This document shows positions 3,000-55,609 of a DNA stretch of 64,000 bases, in pieces (the first letter of the stretch is position 1; the number at the start of each line of letters is the position of its first letter). Source of the stretch: Actinomyces israelii DSM 43320. GTDB lineage: Bacteria; Actinomycetota; Actinomycetes; Actinomycetales; Actinomycetaceae. Where the stretch lies: contig NZ_JONS01000001.1 of NCBI RefSeq assembly GCF_000711965.1, positions 124,001 to 188,000 on the forward strand, read 5' to 3'. The notes beneath the pieces are model-generated. The model was not told the origin of the DNA. It was given only the letters and a program-made list of their open reading frames with translations, and did not search any database. A program made the position numbers and the translations under genes.

Positions 3000-4244
3000 A
3001 TGGCTTCCCCTCGTGTTCTTGCAATCATTCTCGCCGGCGGCGAAGGCAAGCGCCTCATGCCCTTGACGGTCGACCGCGCCAAACCGGCCGTGCCCTTCGG
3101 CGGGATCTATCGCCTCATCGACTTCTCACTGTCGAACATGATCAACTCCGGCTTCCTCAAGGCCGTGGTGCTGACCCAGTACAAGTCGCACTCGCTGGAC
3201 CGCCACATCTCCAAGACCTGGCGCATGTCGGACATGCTGGGCAACTACATCGCCCCGGTGCCCGCCCAGCAGCGTGTGGGCAAGCACTGGTTCCTGGGGT
3301 CCGCCGACGCCATCTACCAGTCGCTGAACCTGCTCGACGACGAGCGGCCCGACTACGTCGTCATCACCGGCGCGGACAACATCTACCGCATGGACTTCTC
3401 CCAGATGCTGGACCACCACATCGCCTCGGGCCTGCCGTGCACCGTGGCGGGCATCCGCCAGCCGCGCTCCCTGGCGGACCAGTTCGGCGTGATCGAGACC
3501 GACCCCGAGGACCGCAGGAAGATCAAGGCCTTCGTCGAGAAGCCCAAGGACACCCCGGGCCTGCCCGACTCCCCCGACGAGATCCTGGCCTCCATGGGCA
3601 ACTACATCATGGACGCCGACGCCCTCTCGCAGGCCGTGACGGTCGACGCCGCCGACGAGGACTCCAAGCACGACATGGGCGGCAACATCGTCCCGTGGTT
3701 CGTGGGCCAGGGCTCCGCCGGCGTCTACGACTTCAAGGACAACGACGTCCCCGGCGCCACCGACCGGGACCGCGACTACTGGCGCGACGTGGGCACGGTG
3801 GACGCCTTCTACGAGGCCCACCAGGACCTGATCTCGGTCACCCCGGTGTTCAACCTGTACAACGACCGGTGGCCGCTGTTCGCCGGCTACACGAACTCCA
3901 TGCCTCCGGCCAAGTTCGTCTACGGGCACCACGAGCGCCTCGGCCACGCAGTCGACTCGATCGTCTCCCCCGGCGTCATCGTGTCCGGCGGCGAGGTCAT
4001 CTCCTCGGTGCTGTCCCCGGGCGTGCGGGTGAACTCCTGGTCCTCGGTGCGCGAGTCCGTCCTCATGGACGGGGTCAACGTCGGGCGCAACACGGTCGTC
4101 AGCCGCGCCATCCTCGACAAGTACGTGGTCGTCGAGGAGGGCGCCATGGTCGGCATCGACGCCGAGCGCGACCGCGAGCGCGGCTTCACCGTGACCGAGT
4201 CCGGCATCACCGTCGTGGCCAAGGGGCAGAAGGTCGCCCGCTGA
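3000..4244 (+). CDS. glgC: Glucose-1-phosphate adenylyltransferase (ADP-glucose pyrophosphorylase)
   Basis: The 414-aa enzyme makes ADP-glucose from ATP and glucose-1-phosphate, the committed step of glycogen and alpha-glucan synthesis. The N-terminal nucleotidyltransferase domain shows [12 protein letters not shown] at residues 12-23 and the activator/substrate region [15 protein letters not shown] just after. [13 protein letters not shown] near 265 and PPAKFVYG near 305 are typical of the family, and the C-terminus is a left-handed beta-helix with repeated hydrophobic hexads ([18 protein letters not shown]). Length matches actinobacterial GlgC. It is divergent from glgA, the same arrangement as in mycobacteria. 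A stem-loop and a dispersed repeat follow the stop codon. Confidence 0.96.
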
Positions 4245-4304: not shown

Positions 4305-4322
4305 TTCTGGCCACCGCCCCCT

Positions 4323-4398
4323 TAGCCGAGATCGGTCGTATTCCGCACCGAGATCGGTTCACTTCCGCACCGAGATCGGTGCGGAAGTGAACCGGTCC
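4323..4398. repeat. Dispersed GCCGAGATCGGT repeat, copy 1, with a 19-bp perfect inverted repeat
   Basis: Three CGAGATCGGT cores are separated by CGTATTCCGC and TTCACTTCCGC. The last two modules form a perfect inverted repeat: CGGTTCACTTCCGCACCGA (4355-4373), GA, then its complement (4376-4394). Related elements lie at 21644, 31368, 32412, 46293 and 54807. It sits between glgC and serB; no coding role is evident. Confidence 0.8.
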
Positions 4399-4464
4399 CG
4401 ACGGAGGGGGCGGCCGCGCCCCGCTCCACTCAACCGGCCCCGCACCCCGCTGGAATCGGTCGTC

Positions 4465-4476: not shown

Positions 4477-5181
4477 ATGGCTGATGAGCAGACCGACAGG
4501 CAGCACGCTGCGGGCCCGCGGGTCTCCGGCACCCGGGCCGCGGGCCCCCTGGCCGGGCCCGGCCTGCTGGTCATGGACGTGGACTCCACGCTCATCGAGC
4601 AGGAGGTCATCGAGCTCATCGCCGAGCACGCGGGCACCCGCGGGCAGGTCGCCGAGATCACCGCGCGGGCGATGCGCGGGGAGCTGGACTTCGCCGCGTC
4701 CCTGCGCGAGCGCGTGGCCACCCTGGCCGGGCTTCCGCAGAAGGTCCTGTCTCAGGTCCGGGCCGAGGCGAGGCCGACCCGGGGGGCGAGGACGCTCATC
4801 AATACGCTGCACGCCCGCGGCTGCCGGGTGGGGGTCGTCTCGGGCGGCTTCGAGGAGGTCGTGGCGCCCCTGGCCGACCGTCTGGGGATCGATCACGTGG
4901 CGGCCAACCGTCTGGAGGCCTGCGACGGCGTGCTGACAGGCCGGGTGCTGGGACGGATCGTGGACCGGGAGGAGAAGGTTCGCCGCCTGCGCGCCTGGGC
5001 CGAGGCCGATGGCGTGCCCATGGAACGCGTCGTCGCCGTGGGGGACGGCGCCAATGACCTGGGCATGATCGCCGCGGCGGGCCTGGGGATCGCCTTCTGC
5101 GCCAAGCCGGTCGTCGTCGAGCAGGCCGACGCCGCCGTGCACGTGCGCGACCTGGCGGCCGTGCTCGACCTGCTGCCCTGA
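4477..5181 (+). CDS. serB: Phosphoserine phosphatase
   Basis: This 234-aa HAD hydrolase removes phosphate from O-phosphoserine, the last step of serine synthesis. HAD motif I is MDVDSTLIEQEVIEL (nucleophile Asp near residue 31), motif II SGGF near 124, and the distal motif GDGANDLGMIAAAGLGIAFCAKP near 190-212 matches SerB closely. The usual N-terminal ACT domain is absent; about 25 Ala/Gly/Arg-rich residues precede the HAD core instead. It converges on the SixA-like gene downstream. The start is supported by a leaderless-type promoter. Confidence 0.94.
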   Translation: MADEQTDRQHAAGPRVSGTRAAGPLAGPGLLVMDVDSTLIEQEVIELIAEHAGTRGQVAEITARAMRGELDFAASLRERVATLAGLPQKVLSQVRAEARPTRGARTLINTLHARGCRVGVVSGGFEEVVAPLADRLGIDHVAANRLEACDGVLTGRVLGRIVDREEKVRRLRAWAEADGVPMERVVAVGDGANDLGMIAAAGLGIAFCAKPVVVEQADAAVHVRDLAAVLDLLP

Positions 5182-21643: not shown

Positions 21644-21686
21644 CGAACCGGTCTGGAGCCGGTGACCTACCGATCTCGGCGAAGGG
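21644..21686. repeat. Dispersed GCCGAGATCGGT repeat, copy 2 (minus orientation)
   Basis: CGAACCGGTCTGGAGCCGG, a short diverged gap, then ACCGATCTCGGCGAA. It is the reverse complement of the distal half of the copies at 31368 and 32412. It lies between the acyltransferase remnant and the putA terminator. Confidence 0.7.
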
Positions 21687-21704
21687 GCCTGCGGGCGCGG
21701 GGCC

Positions 21705-21733: not shown

Positions 21734-24700
21734 TCAGAGCAGCCCGGCGGCCAGGTCGAGCGGCGTGCCGAAGCGGTGGTTGGTGACCGCGACCGCCTGC
21801 TCGTGCAGGAAGGGCAGCAGCTCGGAGTGCGGGCAGGTCGTCACGGCCCCCGTGTACAGGGCGACGTCGGGGCTGCCGCCGGTGAGGCGACTCGCCTCCC
21901 GCCACCGGCAGGCAGCGGTCTGCTCACGCGGCCCCAGCACGCGCACGCGCAGCCCGAGCGCCTCGGAGGCCGCCAGGTCCGCCAGGCGTGCGCTCCACAC
22001 GCCCGGCGCCTCGACATCCACCTCGACATTGGCGGCGGCCAGCGCGCTCGCCAGCTCGGCCGGGAGCCTGTCCGCCACGGACAGGCTCACGAAGGCGCCC
22101 GCACGCACGCCGGCCGCCACGACGCGCACCAGGTCGGCGGGGTGGGTGCCGCCCGCGGCCCGCACGACGACGGGCGTGGGCCGGTAGCGCAGCACGTTGC
22201 GCTCGCAGACCAGGCCGGTGACGTCCCGGCTCGCGCCGTACTGGGACCGCCACGCCTCGGCGTCGGCCACGAGCGCGCGGCGCAGCTCGGTCATGTCGCG
22301 ACGCTCCAGGTGGGTGCGCACGGCGTCGTAGAGGGCGGACACGCGCGCGTCCAGGGTGGACACCAGGTCGTGGTGGCCCTCGTAGGCCTCCTCGTGGTTC
22401 CGGCCGGCGGCCGGAACGACCTCGCCCAGCCCGAGCAGGTAGGACGGCCCGCCGGCCTTGGTCGTCGACCCGATCGCCGAGCGCTTCCAGCCCCCGAAGG
22501 GCTGGCGTCGCACGATCGCGCCGGTGATGCCGCGGTTGACGTAGAGGTTCCCGGCCTCGACCGAGTCCAGCCAGACCGCGAGCTCGTCGGCGTCAAGCGT
22601 GTGCAGCCCCGAGGTCAGGCCGTAGTCGACGGCGTTGACGGCGTCGATGGCCTCCTGGAGAGTCTCCACCCGCATGACGCCCAGCACCGGGGCGAAGTAC
22701 TCGGTCAGGTGGAACTCGCTGCCGGGGACGACACCGGCGCGGATGCCGGGGCGCCACAGGCCGTCGCCCAGATCCCGCGGAGTCAGCACCCAGTGCTCGC
22801 CGGCTCCCAGCGTCGTCAGGCCGTGCAGCGCCTTCTCGTCGTCGGGGACGACGACGGGGCCGACCTGGGAGTCCAGGTGCTCGGGGCCGCGCACCCGCAG
22901 GGAGGAGGTCGCGTCCACCAGCTGGCGGGCGATGCGCTCCGAGGTCCCGGCCGAGCCGACCAGGATGAGCAGGGAGCTCGCCGAGCACTTCTGTCCGGCG
23001 TGGGCGAAGGCGGAGGCCACCACGTCGCGCACGGCGAGATCCGGATCGGCCGAAGGCGTGACAATAATGGCGTTCTTGCCGCTGGTCTCCCCCAGCAGGC
23101 GCATGTCCGGCCTCCAGGAGCGGAAGAGCCGCGCGGTGTCGTAGGAGCCGGTGAGCACCACGCGGCCCACCTGCTCGTGGGTCACCAGGTGGCGCGAGAC
23201 CTCGCCGTCCTCCAGCGGGGCGAGGACCACGAGGTCCTCCGGCAGGCCGGCGTCGTGGAAGGCGCGCACGAGCTCGGCGGCGCAGCGCTTGGCGGGCGGA
23301 GCCGGCTTGAGGATGACGGCGCTGCCCGCGGCCAGGGCGGCCGCCACTCCCCCGGTGGGGATCGCCAGGGGGAAGTTCCACGGCGAGGCGACCACGGTCA
23401 GGTCCACCGGCGCGAAGCGGGCGCCGGTCATGTGCTCCGGGTCGTGCAGCAGCAGGGAGGCCTCGGCGTAGTGGCGGCAGAAGTCGATGGCCTCGCTGAC
23501 CTCGGGATCGGACTGGTCGATGGTCTTGCCCGCCTCGGAGGCGGCGACCTCGATGAGCTCGTGGCGGCGGGCCTCCAGGACGTCCCCGACCCGGTTCAGG
23601 ACGACGGCGCGCTCGTCGGGGTCGCGCCCCTGCCAGGCCGCGGCGGCGGCCGCGGTCGCCCTCACGACCGCGTCGCACCTCGCGACGGTTCCCATGCGGG
23701 CGGCGCCCGCCTCGACCTGGGCGGCGCCCCTCTCGGAGGCCGGCACGGCGGCGGCGATGTCGCGGGCCCACCGGCGGTTGGCGGCCAGCGAGGGGTCCGA
23801 GTCCGGTGTCGAGACGAAAGGACGCCGAATGCGCTCGGCCGAGGCGGTGGCGGTCGGGACGCCCGCCTCGCGCTCGGCGAGCCGGTCCTGGGAGCGGTTG
23901 GGGGCCGGCGCGGGCGCGGCGGGGTCGAGGTCGGCCAGAGCGGCCAGGAAGCGCCCCTCCTCACGGGCGAAGACGGCCTCGTCGGCGGCCAGGTCGAAGA
24001 CGCCCGACATGAAGTTCTCGGGGGCGGCGTTCTCCTCCAGACGTCGCACGAGGTAGGAGATGGCGACGTCGAACTCGCCCGGGTCGACCACGGGCACGTA
24101 CAGCAGAAGGTGGCCCGTCTCATGGCGCACGACCTCCTGCAGGCCGGTGGCCATGCCCGCGAGCATCTCGAACTCGACGTCGTCCGCCACGCCCCGGGCC
24201 TCCCGCAGCTCGTGGGCGAAGGCGATGTCGAACAGGTTCTGCCCCGCCACCCCCAGACGGATGGCGCGGGTGCGCTCGGGGGTCATGGCCCAGGAGAGGA
24301 TGCGCTTGTAGCTCGTGTCCGTGGCTTGCTTGGTCGGCCAGGTGGTCAGCTCCCAGCCGTGGATCTCGGCGTCCACCCGCTCCATGGACAGGTTGGCGCC
24401 CTTGACCACGCGCACCTTGATGCGCGACCCGCCGGCGTCCACGCGGGCGGTCGCCCAGGCCTGGAGACGCTCCATGGCGGCCAGGGAGTCCGGCAGGTAG
24501 GCCTGCAGCACGATGCCGGCCTCGTAGCCGGTCAGGTCCTCCTGGTCGAGGATGGCGGTGAACACCGCGATGGTCAGGTCGAGGTCCTTGTAGTCCTCCA
24601 TGTCGAGGTTGAGGAAGGTGCCGTGGTCGCGGGCCAGGCGGTACAGCGGGGAGAGCACCTCCACGCCGTGGGCGACGACCTCCTCGAAGCCCCAGGGGTT

Positions 24701-25300
24701 GTGCGGGCCGGTGACGGCCGAGACCTTGACCGACACGTAGTCGACGTCCTCGCGGGCCACGAGGCGGGAGACCTCCGCCAGCCGGCGGGAGGCCTCCCTG
24801 TCCCCCAGGACGGCCTCGCCCAGAAGGTTGACATTGAGACGGTTGCCGCCGGTGCGCAGCCGGGCCAGGGCGGGGCCCAGCCCCCGGTCGGTGGCGTCCA
24901 CGACGAGGTCGCCGACGATCTCGCGGAAGACGCGCCGGGCCACGGTGGTCACCGAGCGGGGCGCCAGGCGGGTCGCCCGGCCTCCCAGGCCCATGGCCGC
25001 GGCCAGGGAGCGCGGCAGGAAGTCGGTGCGCCCAGCGGCCAGCCGCGCCAGAGCATGACTGGCGACGTCGAGGTCGATGGGTCGCACGACGTCATCGACG
25101 AAGCGGGTTGTGAACCCCAGACCGTCCGGATCCGACAGGATGCGCGCCAGAAGCCGCGCTGTGCGGGGAACGGGCTGGGAGGCCGACTCGTCGGCCCAGC
25201 GGCGCGCGCGTGCGGCCGCCTTCTCACCGAGCTCCCACAGCTCCGCGGGGCAACGGCGCTCAGCGTCGCCGGGCAGGGGGTGATCGACGGTGGTTAACAT
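21734..25300 (-). CDS. putA: Bifunctional proline dehydrogenase / P5C dehydrogenase PutA
   Basis: The 1188-aa protein oxidises proline to glutamate in two steps. The FAD-dependent proline dehydrogenase barrel covers about residues 90-430 (DYVSVKVSAV, FLNLDMEDYKDLDLT, VVKGANLSMER). The NAD-dependent aldehyde dehydrogenase covers about 500-1000, with SPWNFPLAIPTGG, the catalytic Glu in LLGETSGKNAI and catalytic Cys in AHAGQKCSASS, then PFGGWKRSA near 930. A further 230-residue C-terminal part is conserved-looking but unassigned. There is no N-terminal ribbon-helix-helix DNA-binding domain, so it is not an autoregulator. AGGAG lies 9 nt before the ATG. It is monocistronic, with a strong hairpin at its end. 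Confidence 0.95.
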   Translation of the reverse strand: MLTTVDHPLPGDAERRCPAELWELGEKAAARARRWADESASQPVPRTARLLARILSDPDGLGFTTRFVDDVVRPIDLDVASHALARLAAGRTDFLPRSLAAAMGLGGRATRLAPRSVTTVARRVFREIVGDLVVDATDRGLGPALARLRTGGNRLNVNLLGEAVLGDREASRRLAEVSRLVAREDVDYVSVKVSAVTGPHNPWGFEEVVAHGVEVLSPLYRLARDHGTFLNLDMEDYKDLDLTIAVFTAILDQEDLTGYEAGIVLQAYLPDSLAAMERLQAWATARVDAGGSRIKVRVVKGANLSMERVDAEIHGWELTTWPTKQATDTSYKRILSWAMTPERTRAIRLGVAGQNLFDIAFAHELREARGVADDVEFEMLAGMATGLQEVVRHETGHLLLYVPVVDPGEFDVAISYLVRRLEENAAPENFMSGVFDLAADEAVFAREEGRFLAALADLDPAAPAPAPNRSQDRLAEREAGVPTATASAERIRRPFVSTPDSDPSLAANRRWARDIAAAVPASERGAAQVEAGAARMGTVARCDAVVRATAAAAAAWQGRDPDERAVVLNRVGDVLEARRHELIEVAASEAGKTIDQSDPEVSEAIDFCRHYAEASLLLHDPEHMTGARFAPVDLTVVASPWNFPLAIPTGGVAAALAAGSAVILKPAPPAKRCAAELVRAFHDAGLPEDLVVLAPLEDGEVSRHLVTHEQVGRVVLTGSYDTARLFRSWRPDMRLLGETSGKNAIIVTPSADPDLAVRDVVASAFAHAGQKCSASSLLILVGSAGTSERIARQLVDATSSLRVRGPEHLDSQVGPVVVPDDEKALHGLTTLGAGEHWVLTPRDLGDGLWRPGIRAGVVPGSEFHLTEYFAPVLGVMRVETLQEAIDAVNAVDYGLTSGLHTLDADELAVWLDSVEAGNLYVNRGITGAIVRRQPFGGWKRSAIGSTTKAGGPSYLLGLGEVVPAAGRNHEEAYEGHHDLVSTLDARVSALYDAVRTHLERRDMTELRRALVADAEAWRSQYGASRDVTGLVCERNVLRYRPTPVVVRAAGGTHPADLVRVVAAGVRAGAFVSLSVADRLPAELASALAAANVEVDVEAPGVWSARLADLAASEALGLRVRVLGPREQTAACRWREASRLTGGSPDVALYTGAVTTCPHSELLPFLHEQAVAVTNHRFGTPLDLAAGLL

Positions 25301-30131: not shown

Positions 30132-30135
<4 letters not shown>
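29677..30135 (-). CDS. ybeY: Endoribonuclease YbeY (rRNA maturation factor)
   Basis: The 152-aa metalloprotein processes the 3' end of 16S rRNA. The zinc-binding signature [16 protein letters not shown] at about 116-131 has the three metal His residues. [12 protein letters not shown] near 59-70 is the second family motif. The GTG start overlaps the phoH stop by four bases (GTGA), and the stop overlaps the CBS-protein start, so the three genes are translationally coupled. Confidence 0.96.
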
Positions 30136-31316
<1,181 letters not shown>

Positions 31317-31330: not shown

Positions 31331-31367
31331 GATGATTGATTCCGAGCGTCCGGGCCCGCGGCTCCCT

Positions 31368-31429
31368 TTCGCCGAGATCGGTGGAGACCCGCGCCGAGAT
31401 CGGTTCACTTCCGGCTCGAGACCGGTTCG
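31368..31429. repeat. Dispersed GCCGAGATCGGT repeat, copy 3
   Basis: Two GCCGAGATCGGT cores separated by GGAGACCCGC, followed by TCACTTCCGG and CTCGAGACCGGTTCG. This appears to be the full-length arrangement of the family. It lies between phoH and the EamA gene. Confidence 0.8.
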
Positions 31430-31469
31430 AGGCACCCGCAGGGCGCCGGGGTCCTGCGGCCCGCCCTGT

Positions 31470-32339
31470 TCAGAGGGCGAGGGCGACTGTTCCCGCCACG
31501 AGGACGGCCAGGCCGAGCAGCGCCCGGACGCCCACGTGCTCGCGCAGGACGAGGACCGAGAAGGCCACGGAGACCAGGACGCTGAGCTTGTCGATGGGGA
31601 CGACGACGCTGGCGGGCCCGTCCTGGAGGGCGCGGAAGTAGCACAGCCAGGAGGCGCAGGTGGCCAGGCCCGACAGCAGGATCCAGGTCATCTCGCCGCG
31701 CGGCACGCGGGTGGCGCTCCCGAGCCGTCCGGCGACGCCGACCATGGCCCAGGCCATGACCAGGACGACTCCTGTGCGGATGGCGGTGCCGAGGTCGGAG
31801 GGCACCGCGGCGATACCGATCTTGCCGAGGATCGCGGTGAGGGCCGCGAACAGGGCGGCACCGAGCGCGTACAGCAGCCACCCGCCGCCTCCGGCCAGCG
31901 CCCGCGGCAGGGCGCGCAGGTCCTCGGCGCGCAGCATGAGGAGCGTGCCGATGGTGACCAGGACCAGCCCGACGGCGCCGAGGGCGCTCAGGCCCTCCCC
32001 CAGGAGCAGCACGGCCATGATCACCGTGAGGACCGTGCTCATCTTGTCGACGGGGGCGACCCTGCTGACGTCCCCGAGCTGGAGCGCCTTGAAGTAGCAC
32101 AGCCAGGAGGCGCCGGTGGCCAGGCCCGACAGAACCAGGTAGGCGAGGCTGCGGGCGTCGACCTGCCCGAGCTCGCGGATCGAGCCGCTGAGCAGGGTCA
32201 TGCCCCAGGCGCCGACGAGGACGACGGGCGTGCGCAGGGCGGTGGCGAGGGTGGAGTCGGTGGTGCGCACGCCCTGCTTGGCCAGGACGGCGGTCAGCCC
32301 GGCGAACAGGGCGGAGGCGCAGGCGAACAGGAGCCACAC
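31470..32339 (-). CDS. EamA/DMT-family transporter
   Basis: The 289-aa membrane protein has ten predicted helices in two internally repeated EamA halves. Both halves contain the same sentence: GLATGASWLCYFKALQLGDVS near residue 72 and GLATCASWLCYFRALQDGPAS near 215. Each is followed by V.P.DK.S and a long hydrophobic helix. The family exports metabolites, and the substrate is unknown. The GTG start has TACCGT 7 nt upstream. It stands alone in its direction between two dispersed repeats. Confidence 0.88.
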   Translation of the reverse strand: MWLLFACASALFAGLTAVLAKQGVRTTDSTLATALRTPVVLVGAWGMTLLSGSIRELGQVDARSLAYLVLSGLATGASWLCYFKALQLGDVSRVAPVDKMSTVLTVIMAVLLLGEGLSALGAVGLVLVTIGTLLMLRAEDLRALPRALAGGGGWLLYALGAALFAALTAILGKIGIAAVPSDLGTAIRTGVVLVMAWAMVGVAGRLGSATRVPRGEMTWILLSGLATCASWLCYFRALQDGPASVVVPIDKLSVLVSVAFSVLVLREHVGVRALLGLAVLVAGTVALAL

Positions 32340-32411: not shown

Positions 32412-32483
32412 GTTCGCCGAGATCGGTCGTATTCGGTCGTATTCCGCGTCGAGATCGGTCACTTCCGGCTCGAGACCGGTTCG
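32412..32483. repeat. Dispersed GCCGAGATCGGT repeat, copy 4
   Basis: GCCGAGATCGGT, then CGTATTCGGT and CGTATTCCGC in tandem, a second core TCGAGATCGGT, CACTTCCGG and CTCGAGACCGGTTCG. It shares the distal half with copy 3 and the CGTATTCCGC spacer with copy 1. Confidence 0.8.
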
Positions 32484-37301: not shown

Positions 37302-38037
37302 CGCGTCCGCGCACCGGCGCGCAGAGCGTCCCGCCCGAGCTCGCCATCGAGCGCGGCCTGCGGGCCCGGGCGCGCCCGGGGACTACTTGTCACCGGCCCG
37401 CCGTGGACTAGTGGACTAAGAGTCTCAGAAGTCTCAGCCCCTGCCGCCTCGAAGTCGTCGACACCGCGGGTGGCCAGAGCACAGCGCCGTGAGCGGGCGG
37501 CAGCAGCGACGGGAGAGCCCGTAAGACGACGGGCGGCAACGCCGGCCGTAGCCCTCTCCTCCGATATCAGTTACAGCAAACGATATCGTCGGCTCGGCTT
37601 CGACGCGGGGAACGCGGGAAGATTGAGAGTGACGTGGCCCGCGGTGCCGGGTTGTCTCTCCCGGCCCGCGGGCCCTTGTCGTCGAGGGGCTCCGCTCCCG
37701 TGTTCCCAGTCGGGGGAGCCCCCTCCTTCGCCAGAGCGATCGACCCCGGGCTCCCTTAGACCCCGGGCCATCTCGGAGGAGGGCCGGTCACCGGGTTCCC
37801 CAACCCTCGTGACCCTCTCCGTCCGGCGGCACACACTATGCAACCTGCTGGACCTGGACATCCGCCCCCGCTCAGCCTGTGAAGATGATGAGAGCGCCGA
37901 GAGCCGGCCCCGGGCCGGGGACAGCGCCCCGTCGGCGCATTCGCGGAAAGCCGGGCGCGGCCGGTACCGTGAGCGCGCCAACGTCCTCCCCCGCGCCCGG
38001 GAGGGCCTGCATCTCACCACCGATCCGAAAGGCCGCC
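37302..38037. other. 736-nt region with no recognised gene
   Basis: Open frames exist on both strands, but all are Arg/Ser/Pro-rich shadows without motif or start signal. Visible signals are GTGGACTA twice in tandem (37403-37418), AGTCTCAG twice (about 37421-37437), and an inverted repeat CGATATC-13 nt-GATATCG at 37562-37588 in a locally AT-richer patch. Near the right end TACCGT (37965-37970) could be the promoter of the Imm51 gene. The stretch may be the remains of a lost gene. Confidence 0.5.
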
Positions 38038-45184: not shown

Positions 45185-46252
45185 GTGAACGCAATGCCCT
45201 ACCGCTCCCGCCCCGCCCCCGGCTCGACCGTCGAGCGCCGCAAGGCCCTGCGCGCCCAGGCGGCCGCCGCCGGACGGGCCGCCGGCTCGCGCCCCGGGAA
45301 GCGGCTCCCGGCGGCCGCGGAGCCCGCCACTCCGCCCTCGGGGCCCTCGCGGCCGTCGAGCACGGACCGCTACGGGGGCGACGTGCTGGCCGCCGACCCG
45401 CACCGGGTGGGGCCGCACGCGACGCGCCCCGAGTCGGCGCACGTGGCCGTCGAGCGCGGCATGGTCCTGGAGGACCGGGAGAGCGGGTTCGTGGGGGCGG
45501 CGGTGTCCGTGGAGAAGTCCGGGGGACGCCACGTCGTCGTCCTGGAGGACCGCAGGGGCGTGCGCCGCGGCTTCCCCCTGGGCGGCGGCTTCTGGCTGGA
45601 GGGGCGCCCCGTGATCCTCGATCCGCCGCGACCGCGCCCCCGGGCCCCCCGGGGGCCGGTCAGCGCCGGCGGGCGCAGGCTCACGGCGTCGGGCTCATAC
45701 GCCGTGGAGGGCGACAGGGCGAGAGTGGCCCGGGCCTCGCGCATCTGGGTGGAGGGCAGGCACGACGCCGAGCTGGTCGAGAAGGTGTGGGGAGACGACC
45801 TGCGCCACGAGGGTGTCGTCGTCCTCATGCTCGACGGCGTGGACAACCTCCAGGAGGTCATGGCCGGCTTCGGCCCCGGCCCTGAGCGGCGCGCCGGCGT
45901 GCTCGTGGACCACCTCGTGGCCGGGTCCAAGGAGTCGCGGATCGCCCAGCGCGTGCGGGCCATGCCCGGCGGCGAGAACGTGCTGGTGCTGGGCCACCCG
46001 TACGTGGACGTGTGGCAGGCGGTCAAGCCCGAGCGCGTGGGGCTGAAGGCGTGGCCCCGGGTGCCGCGGGGAACCGACATCAAGCGCGGCACCCTCGAGA
46101 CGCTCGGCTGGCCGCACGCCACCCAGGCGGACGTGGCCCGCGGCTGGCAGCGGATCCTGGCGACGGTGCGCACCTACAAGGACCTCGAGCCGAACCTGCT
46201 GGGGCGCATGGAGGAGCTCATCGACTTCGTCACCGCGCCGGGTACCCGCTGA
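45185..46252 (+). CDS. DUF3097 family protein
   Basis: The 355-aa protein belongs to a family confined to Actinobacteria with no known function. RIWVEGRHDAELVEKVWGDD near 188-207 is Toprim-like (E-x-D pattern), and VVVLMLDGVDNLQEVM, VLVDHLVAGSKESRIAQRV and VLVLGHPYVDVWQAVKP follow with the DxD-like acidic pattern of Toprim folds. It may therefore act on nucleic acid, an inference only. The first 60 residues are Arg/Ala/Pro-rich. It is divergent from hrcA; the gene is next to hrcA/dnaJ in other Actinobacteria as well. Confidence 0.82.
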   Translation: MNAMPYRSRPAPGSTVERRKALRAQAAAAGRAAGSRPGKRLPAAAEPATPPSGPSRPSSTDRYGGDVLAADPHRVGPHATRPESAHVAVERGMVLEDRESGFVGAAVSVEKSGGRHVVVLEDRRGVRRGFPLGGGFWLEGRPVILDPPRPRPRAPRGPVSAGGRRLTASGSYAVEGDRARVARASRIWVEGRHDAELVEKVWGDDLRHEGVVVLMLDGVDNLQEVMAGFGPGPERRAGVLVDHLVAGSKESRIAQRVRAMPGGENVLVLGHPYVDVWQAVKPERVGLKAWPRVPRGTDIKRGTLETLGWPHATQADVARGWQRILATVRTYKDLEPNLLGRMEELIDFVTAPGTR

Positions 46253-46292
46253 CGCCCCGCCCCGAGCCCGGCACACAGCCGGCCGCCCCCTC

Positions 46293-46314
46293 TTGCCGAG
46301 ATCGGTTCACTTTC
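46293..46314. repeat. Dispersed GCCGAGATCGGT repeat, copy 5 (partial)
   Basis: TTGCCGAGATCGGTTCACTTT: one core and the TTCACTT module only. It lies between the DUF3097 gene and the lipoprotein esterase. Confidence 0.6.
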
Positions 46315-54805: not shown

Positions 54806-55609
54806 TCACTGATCTCGGCGCGGATGCCCACCGATCTCGGTGAGCGGCCGCGGGTTCTCCGCGCCGCCGGGGCCGGCCGCCGAGGCCAGCACCCACAGGT
54901 GGCCCACCGGCACGACCGCCTCGGCGCGCTCACGGGGAGGCTCCTCGTCCGCGCGCACGGCGCGCACCACCGTCGCCCTGCGGCGCTTCTCCCCCGCCGC
55001 GAAGGCCGACACGGTGCCCCGATCGATCACGGTCACCGTCGTGTCCAGGCCGATGCCGGCCAGAGCGAGATCGCGCAGGGTCTTGGAGCAGTCCTTGATA
55101 CGGCCCACGACGACGGTCCGCCCCACGGGCACGGTGTCGATGCTGCACAGCTCCGGCTGGACGACGCACCCGTCCGGGGCGGGGATCGGGTCGCCGTGCG
55201 GGTCCCGCGCAGGATGCCCCAGTGCGTCGTCGAGCGCCTCCAGGAGCCTGTCGGACACGGCGTGCTCGAGAACCTCGGCCTCGGCGTGGACCTCGTCCCA
55301 GCTCAGTCCCAGGCGCTCGACCAGGTAGGTCTCCAGAAGGCGGTGGCGGCGCACCATGCCGGTGGCCAGGCGCTGCCCGTCGGCCGACAGCGTGACGGCC
55401 TTGTAGGGCTCGTGCTCGAGCAGGCCCGCCTCGACCAGGCGCCCCACGTTCTCCGACGCCGTGGAGGGGGCGACCTTCATCCGCCGCGCCAGACCGGTGA
55501 TCGAGGCGCCCTTGCCGCCCCACTCCATGGCGGCCCACACCGCCTTGAGGTAGTCCTGGGTCACGGCGGAGGCCTCGGCCGGGGCATCGGCCTGGTTGAC
55601 GGGGCTCAT
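54806..55609 (-). CDS. DtxR-family metal-dependent regulator
   Basis: The 267-aa regulator has the DtxR winged helix (VTQDYLKAVWAAMEWGGKGA, then TGLARRMKVAPSTASENVGR) at about 16-57. The metal/dimer domain follows with HRLLETYLVERLGLSWDEVH near 89-108 and EVLEHAVSDRLLEALDDALG, and a C-terminal FeoA/SH3-like domain covers about 150-235. The retained His and Glu ligands suggest a Mn/Fe-responsive regulator of the MntR/IdeR type. The last 13 codons lie in dispersed-repeat sequence. Its ATG overlaps the VKOR stop (ATGA). Its target genes are not evident here. Confidence 0.9.
   Translation of the reverse strand: MSPVNQADAPAEASAVTQDYLKAVWAAMEWGGKGASITGLARRMKVAPSTASENVGRLVEAGLLEHEPYKAVTLSADGQRLATGMVRRHRLLETYLVERLGLSWDEVHAEAEVLEHAVSDRLLEALDDALGHPARDPHGDPIPAPDGCVVQPELCSIDTVPVGRTVVVGRIKDCSKTLRDLALAGIGLDTTVTVIDRGTVSAFAAGEKRRRATVVRAVRADEEPPRERAEAVVPVGHLWVLASAAGPGGAENPRPLTEIGGHPRRDQ
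54807..54846. repeat. Dispersed GCCGAGATCGGT repeat, copy 6, inside the end of the DtxR gene
   Basis: On the minus strand it reads ACCGAGATCGGTGGGCATCC then GCGCCGAGATCAGTGA: two cores with a 10-nt spacer like that of copy 3. It encodes the last residues TEIGGHPRRDQ and the stop codon of the DtxR protein. Confidence 0.7.

Follow-up and report, generated by a model that had tools for sequence, protein, structure and literature searches.

The 64,000-nucleotide stretch of Actinomyces israelii DSM 43320 analysed here (the window) holds six short arrays of a 12-nt repeat core, all at or near gene borders (Table 1). Array 1 is flanked by a nucleotidyl-transferase ORF (3057-4244) and a HAD-hydrolase ORF (4477-5181), named after their Pfam families, which we take to be GlgC and SerB, respectively. 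Array 2 lies 54 nt from the 3' end of a proline dehydrogenase/aldehyde dehydrogenase ORF (21734-25300), array 3 upstream of PhoH (30132-31175), array 4 upstream of an EamA-family transporter (31470-32339) and array 5 43 nt past the stop codon of a DUF3097 gene (45185-46252), and array 6 contains the last codons and the stop of an iron-dependent-repressor-family ORF (54806-55609). Within the transporter gene itself, 31526-31676 and 31982-32132 are 73% identical and Pfam finds two stretches, which are probably its duplicated domain.

The first-pass annotation had placed six copies of a modular repeat in the window, in both orientations and always between genes or at a gene end. We found all six loci, with copies on the forward strand at 4326, 31372, 32417 and 46296 and on the reverse strand at 21669 and 54808-54840, and all are intergenic by the gene calls apart from the last, which runs into the 3' end of ORF 54806-55609. 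The 12-mer has six exact and five one-mismatch matches in the window; with up to two mismatches allowed, it matched 35 times against 15.4 expected, a number reached in 0 of 100 shuffles, confirming that the core is more frequent than in shuffled sequence. The module sequences proposed at the time are real, but they are parts of one tandem array of period 22 rather than separate modules: CGTATTCCGC, GGAGACCCGC and TTCACTTCCGG are linkers within the repeat, and CTCGAGACCGGTTCG is a degenerate final core. Likewise, what had been described as loss or gain of modules comes down mostly to whole units being added or lost; array 4 additionally has a duplicated piece of linker. In array 1, a C-rich proximal edge (CCCCTTA) is followed by the cores and then by an inverted closing half, and a 34-bp palindrome lies at 4358-4391, with 16-bp arms around GA.

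Table 1 Coordinates of the arrays in the window and of two other repeats discussed in the text.
Feature	Position	Strand	Genome	Structure
Array 1	4318..4410	+	G000	Cores 4325-4336, 4347-4358, 4369-4380; period 22
Array 2	21645..21687	-	G000	Good core 21669-21680; degenerate core 21647-21658; proximal edge CCCCTTCG
Array 3	31364..31430	+	G000	Cores 31371-31382, 31393-31404; degenerate core 31415-31426
Array 4	32412..32483	+	G000	Core 32416-32427; duplicated 10-nt linker piece; core 32448-32459; degenerate last core 32469-32480
Array 5	46288..46314	+	G000	Single core 46295-46306
Array 6	54807..54843	-	G000	Cores 54808-54819, 54830-54841
~120-bp MITE-like repeat	L033 2441-2561		G000	
~120-bp MITE-like repeat	L044 5373-5492		G000	
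~120-bp MITE-like repeat	L031 1247-1366		G000	
~120-bp MITE-like repeat	L038 17715-17834		G000	
~120-bp MITE-like repeat	L038 18877-18996		G000	
CACYAAGTCGNNN array near PhoH	L125		G022	
CACYAAGTCGNNN array near PhoH	L129		G045	
CACYAAGTCGNNN array near PhoH	L131		G020	
CACYAAGTCGNNN array near PhoH	L116		G023	
CACYAAGTCGNNN array near PhoH	L119		G024	
CACYAAGTCGNNN array near PhoH	L115		G027	
CACYAAGTCGNNN array near PhoH	L122		G028	

Copies are far from few elsewhere in the genome containing the window (G000, 4.03 Mb): the 11-mer CCGAGATCGGT occurs 341 times (180 + 161) against none for the reversed control, supporting the earlier proposal of a dispersed intergenic repeat family. We described the anatomy from the window and 20 further stretches of the same genome picked around listed copies, 355 kb in all. 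An array there starts with a C-rich edge (CCCcTTCG) and continues with cores GCCGAGATCGGT at intervals of 22 nt with linkers NNNNTTCCGN, the last core often being followed by TTC or TCG; the near-palindromic core ACCGA-GA-TCGGT and the 10-nt linker NNNNTTCCGN together give the period of 22. Of the 72 arrays of this sample, 17 have a single core, 41 two cores, 12 three, one four and one six. In alignment, their conservation extends about 10 nt ahead of the first core and for a few nucleotides beyond the last. With no spacing rule imposed, same-strand neighbouring cores lay exactly 22 apart in 62 of 68 cases (60 clusters), and neighbours were mostly direct repeats, both orientations being present in 8 of the 60 clusters. 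In blocks from nine genomes, 41 of 42 neighbours less than 70 apart were spaced at 22, 23 or 46, and one at 32. The linkers vary within this frame: among 83 units, selected for having the next core at 22, there were 40 different linkers. Two conserved blocks flank a variable 4-nt block: CGAGATCGGT, which the search itself largely imposed, and TTCCG, which it did not. Positions 13-16 of these units are variable and linker positions 18-21 (TCCG) are 94-100% conserved. Only 3 of 86 exact cores lay mostly inside called genes, in sampled DNA of which 81% was called coding by a home-made codon-usage caller.

Across 49 Actinomyces genomes, a tandem-pair pattern that left the centre and the linker free matched 25 to 504 times in 10 genomes, one to five times in 7 and not at all in 32, with no match of the reversed control in any of them; these counts are inflated where an array fits the quasi-palindromic pattern on both strands, and linker-specific patterns fix the strand. 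The boundary of the family is not sharp: G038 has only three tandem-pair matches yet 27 exact 11-mers, together with an array in which a related 23-nt unit is present three times, and the five matches in G011 and one in G025 are spaced 22 apart. Among named records, arrays are present in Actinomyces gerencseriae DSM 6844 and A. massiliensis 4401292. In an order-wide sample of 396 genomes, 7 of them from the genus, the other 389 had 0-2 matches each (26 in total, in 25 genomes), compared with six matches in five genomes for the reversed control. These matches exceed the control, but they are scattered singles and no repeat family.

The carriers divide into two clades by unit type. A 22-nt pattern with the TTCCG linker matched only G000 (221 matches), G009 (238) and G016 (329) among the 49 genomes, which we call clade A, and a 23-nt pattern with the TTACG linker was confined to the seven genomes of clade B, G010 (43), G023 (265), G024 (5), G027 (79), G028 (8), G034 (31) and G041 (105). 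No genome had both unit types, and the remaining genomes and the reversed control gave no match for either pattern. Clade B additionally has a 22-nt unit ending in TAACC; the two TAACC linkers of G016 are CGTAACCCG variants. The centre of the core varies too. GA was found in 143 of 151 cores in G000, in 33 of 36 in G016 and in both cores of 18 of the 21 listed pairs in G027, GG prevailed in G023 (24 of 34) and G041 (38 of 59), and GT occurred in 5 of 7 sampled cores of G024; because the array finder behind this census was restricted to partners at 22 or 23, the spacings it counted say nothing about whether spacing is kept. In G010, GA and GG were equally frequent (17 each, of 37), so the units of one species need not be entirely alike. 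A tree of one gene, PhoH, placed the carriers in two groups (three changes, weak backbone), with the non-carrier G031 inside group A; it covers 34 of the 49 genomes, 35 having had sequence and G028 having been dropped for a short match.

Comparing nine of the ten carriers around the window (G028 was left out), we found many arrays at the same gene ends in different species. An array lies upstream of PhoH in seven of the nine, the exceptions being G016 and G027, and G028 also has one; the unit at these PhoH ends differs in the other clade, and a relic in G009 still resembles the unit of the other clade. At the DUF3097 gene end, G009, G023 and G024 have three cores and G000 and G034 a single core, G016 and G010 have no array, and the block contains no orthologue of the gene in G041 or G027. 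G023 also has a decayed two-core array at the gene end matching that of array 4. Other places are occupied in one clade: the six clade-B genomes each have an array after Fur and the three clade-A genomes have none, and after the SerB-like gene an array is present in all five clade-B genomes whose block includes that gene (a single core in two of them) and absent from the three clade-A genomes. Of eight elements in the G000 block, three were common to another genome and five were unshared with any genome having the orthologous gene end. Overall, 18 of 40 cross-clade comparisons of gene ends were shared, against a mean of 2.6-3.0 and a maximum of 12 when arrays were redistributed among intergenic gaps (18 was reached in 0 of 2 x 2000 shuffles), and within clade B 46 of 57 were shared (shuffled mean 5.3, maximum 16 in 1000); genome pairs are not independent, so these shuffles measure an excess and not an exact probability. 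The other 22 cross-clade comparisons were unshared, and in the carrier G016 the 140 kb compared (C2:462401-602300) contained just one array, though the genome has 329 TTCCG-type pairs. Array density in G016 seems uneven along the chromosome, listed places on the + strand of C1 being frequent.

Unit number and unit type change even between closely similar genomes. G041 and G010 are 96% identical over 18 kb, and of 15 arrays queried from G041, 14 could be mapped to G010, where nine of the places have a recognisable array. One of these nine is identical and five differ by whole units; of the other three, one has about four partly decayed units against seven, one is decayed with the same number and one consists of the other unit type. 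Among the five G010 places with no recognisable array, two lack it (one has other sequence and one is shortened), two may be array remnants, and one cannot be judged because similarity ends before the array. Upstream of PhoH, G010, G041 and G023 have two, three and four cores, respectively, the G010 and G041 flanks being 97-98% identical. After Fur, all three have three cores, and the internal units differ between G010 and G041 despite 99% identical flanks. At one place, the array has opposite orientations in G023 and G010. In addition, repeat words around GGTCCAACG / GGTCCAAAC occur in intergenic DNA of G023 (C1:1941785-1941853, L167), where they lie beside an array, and of G010 (C9:286496-286562, L241), where they replace one.

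The inverted (G023/G010) and replaced (G041/G010) arrays fit replacement or re-insertion as well as strict inheritance, and bacterial interspersed repeats are often viewed as relics of mobile elements. The arrays could be tolerated selfish repeats of this sort, that is, a MITE-, BOX- or STAR-like non-autonomous element whose ends or whole would be copied by an enzyme into tolerant intergenic sites, and we consider this nearly as likely as the protein-binding reading that we prefer. A mobile element would explain the patchy abundance (10 of 49 species), the clade-specific unit expected of a burst, the replaced and inverted arrays at orthologous sites, the inward-facing array pairs that bracket some intergenic regions and the existence of compact palindromic versions; the positions common to both clades count against it unless they reflect insertion hot spots and long survival. 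Neither target-site duplications, at three aligned G041/G010 sites or in the G023/G010 comparison, nor clean insertion sites were recognised in these between-species comparisons. The specific suggestion of a REP-like element served by a TnpA-REP (Y1) transposase did not hold up: PF01797, the one transposase family sought, was found in 0 of 49 Actinomyces genomes and in 5 of 14 named genomes used as positive controls, and the anatomy is that of a direct-repeat array, which led us to reject REP/RAYT. An origin from phages, viruses or plasmids was likewise rejected, as two tandem patterns had no match in IMG/VR and plasmids and phages gave none with one 93-base query each at E up to 0.01. A composite element with a common interior was not recovered either, since flank comparison of paired arrays yielded only other inverted repeats (among 119 of 209 matching pairs).

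Other repeats lie close to the arrays. In G000, a MITE-like repeat about 120 bp long, whose ends TGTCCGTCAGAATGACATT...AATGTCATTCTGACGGACA are inverted, has several copies beside arrays or between paired ones (Table 1). An inverted repeat GGGAAAAGGTGGCTCCTACGCACTTTTAA around a short interior lies between two arrays (L040 5869-6004), with one diverged arm at L036 3045-3073. A different short-period array (CACYAAGTCGNNN; CACYAAGTCG) was considered as a sister family and rejected, with only 1-4 matches per genome at one place each (18 of 49 genomes); in the seven genomes given in Table 1 it occurs a few kilobases from PhoH.

Arrays tend to be polar with respect to the nearer gene. The C-rich edge rather than the distal one lay closer to a gene in 36 of 51 G000 arrays and in 32 of 39 arrays of the nine genomes (p = 7e-5), sets in which orthologues are not independent and the window arrays are counted twice, once in each. 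At 3' ends, this edge lay mostly -35 to +110 nt relative to the stop codon, and at 5' ends mostly 24-270 nt ahead of the called start, a distance that is approximate given the home-made gene caller. Between some convergent genes the array makes up nearly all intergenic DNA, for example after Fur in clade B; the corresponding DNA in clade-A orthologues is 33-70 nt long and has no array.

Such placement after stop codons would suit an RNA element, in which transcribed arrays fold from one core to the next into hairpins that stabilise or terminate transcripts. The first-pass annotation had raised an RNA hairpin, and there is a slight excess of stability over dinucleotide shuffles, with mean z-scores of -1.24 for the sense strand, -0.66 for the antisense strand and +0.17 for downstream control pieces (45 of 53 arrays). 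However, any direct repeat of an imperfect palindrome would fold in this way, the centre dinucleotide varies between species without compensation, arrays also lie upstream of genes and on both strands relative to them, and Rfam gave no match at arrays at the gathering threshold, all of which makes an RNA role improbable. Between tandem genes, 13 arrays were sense and 21 antisense, a split that gives no clear strand bias with respect to transcription and hence no indication that arrays act as simple terminators. Away from the arrays, the window contains an Rfam match to RF02928 Actinomyces-1 RNA (37723-37833, reverse strand, 101 bits).

The arrays form a genus-restricted, interspersed, intergenic family of fixed period, with many positions kept between species and clade-specific units. 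We prefer to read the cores as candidate protein-binding sites, which is compatible with these data; we infer binding because the palindromic arms enclose a free centre and the spacing is kept while the linker varies, and because we found no support for a Y1 transposase or for a role at the RNA level. The near-palindromic 12-bp cores (ACCGA-NN-TCGGT), which recur every 22 or 23 bp, about two helical turns, could each be bound by one dimer of a candidate sequence-specific protein, which would place adjacent dimers on the same face of the DNA. The resulting row of protein may serve as a boundary mark for a gene or its promoter, acting for instance as a polar roadblock to transcription or as a nucleoid anchor. 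Unequal exchange or slippage would alter array length, and gene conversion, or co-evolution with the protein, would keep units alike throughout a genome. Taken as a whole, a STAR/BOX-like array family, with cores bound by dimers of a putative protein, inherited in place and evolving in concert, is our leading interpretation, which we advance tentatively from sequence comparison.

A bolder version, which we regard as possible though rather doubtful, is that Actinomyces has an undescribed chromosome-wide system of which the arrays are the gene-border elements. In it, rows of a putative dimeric DNA-binding protein would act with polarity toward the gene they face, and the recognition unit would co-evolve with the protein, the arrays of a lineage changing in step while remaining at the same genes. 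Hundreds of short, mostly intergenic copies on both strands, with clade-specific sequence and sometimes in inverted pairs, might also be expected of recognition tags such as DNA-uptake sequences or recombination signals. Uptake tags, however, are single short words, far more numerous in Neisseria, and not arrays of fixed period with variable linkers, which leaves this the least probable of the readings considered.

With many positions shared across species and a unit specific to each clade, the pattern resembles a bacterial case of concerted evolution acting on hundreds of dispersed sites between genes. Two questions become testable, namely what homogenises short dispersed arrays and what binds them, and the arrays could serve as typing markers for Actinomyces. 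Among the papers listed by our literature searches we found no description of such an array family, a result that falls short of proving absence.

Several known systems resemble the arrays in part. CRISPR loci have longer repeats with unique spacers, whereas the Actinomyces core is 12 nt long and its 10-11-nt linkers come from a small set (40 kinds in 83 units). MIRU-VNTR of mycobacteria and STRR of cyanobacteria are, like the arrays, dispersed intergenic tandem repeats, but their unit lengths and sequences differ. REP/BIME elements are palindromic, mostly intergenic, present in more than 100 copies per genome and linked to tyrosine (Y1) transposases (PMC2817692); REPs alternate in orientation, whereas the Actinomyces cores are mostly direct and the 49 genomes of the genus have no Y1 transposase. 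BOX elements of Streptococcus pneumoniae are composite and intergenic, built of edge modules around tandem middle modules that vary in number, boxA and boxC being modules of about 50 nt and the ends having a reported similarity to an insertion sequence (PMC3049150). The Actinomyces arrays are also composite, with edges and a variable number of tandem middle units, but their conserved edges reach no more than about 10 nt, their unit measures 22/23 nt, they have no end modules of about 50 nt, and no link to an insertion sequence came to notice in the course of the analysis.

STAR elements of Staphylococcus are interspersed intergenic direct repeats, up to seven per locus, that vary by whole repeats; they have a 14-bp GC-rich motif and spacers of at least 40 bp, with 32-39 loci per S. 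aureus genome and no dominant spacer across loci (PMC3532100). Their locations are reported not to be conserved between species, their abundance does not track species phylogeny, and their function and dispersal are unknown (PMC3532100). The Actinomyces arrays share with them a dispersed intergenic placement and direct repeats, several per locus, in numbers that vary between relatives by whole repeats, as well as an abundance out of line with species phylogeny. They differ in their palindromic core, 22/23-bp period and 341 cores in one genome, and by inspection the proper STAR motif TNTGTTGNGGCCC is not the same as the Actinomyces core ACCGANNTCGGT. Whereas STAR loci are reported as neither shared between species nor homogenised across loci, the Actinomyces arrays depart from them on both points, sharing many positions between species and having a linker type exclusive to each clade. 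STAR elements are the closest described kind.
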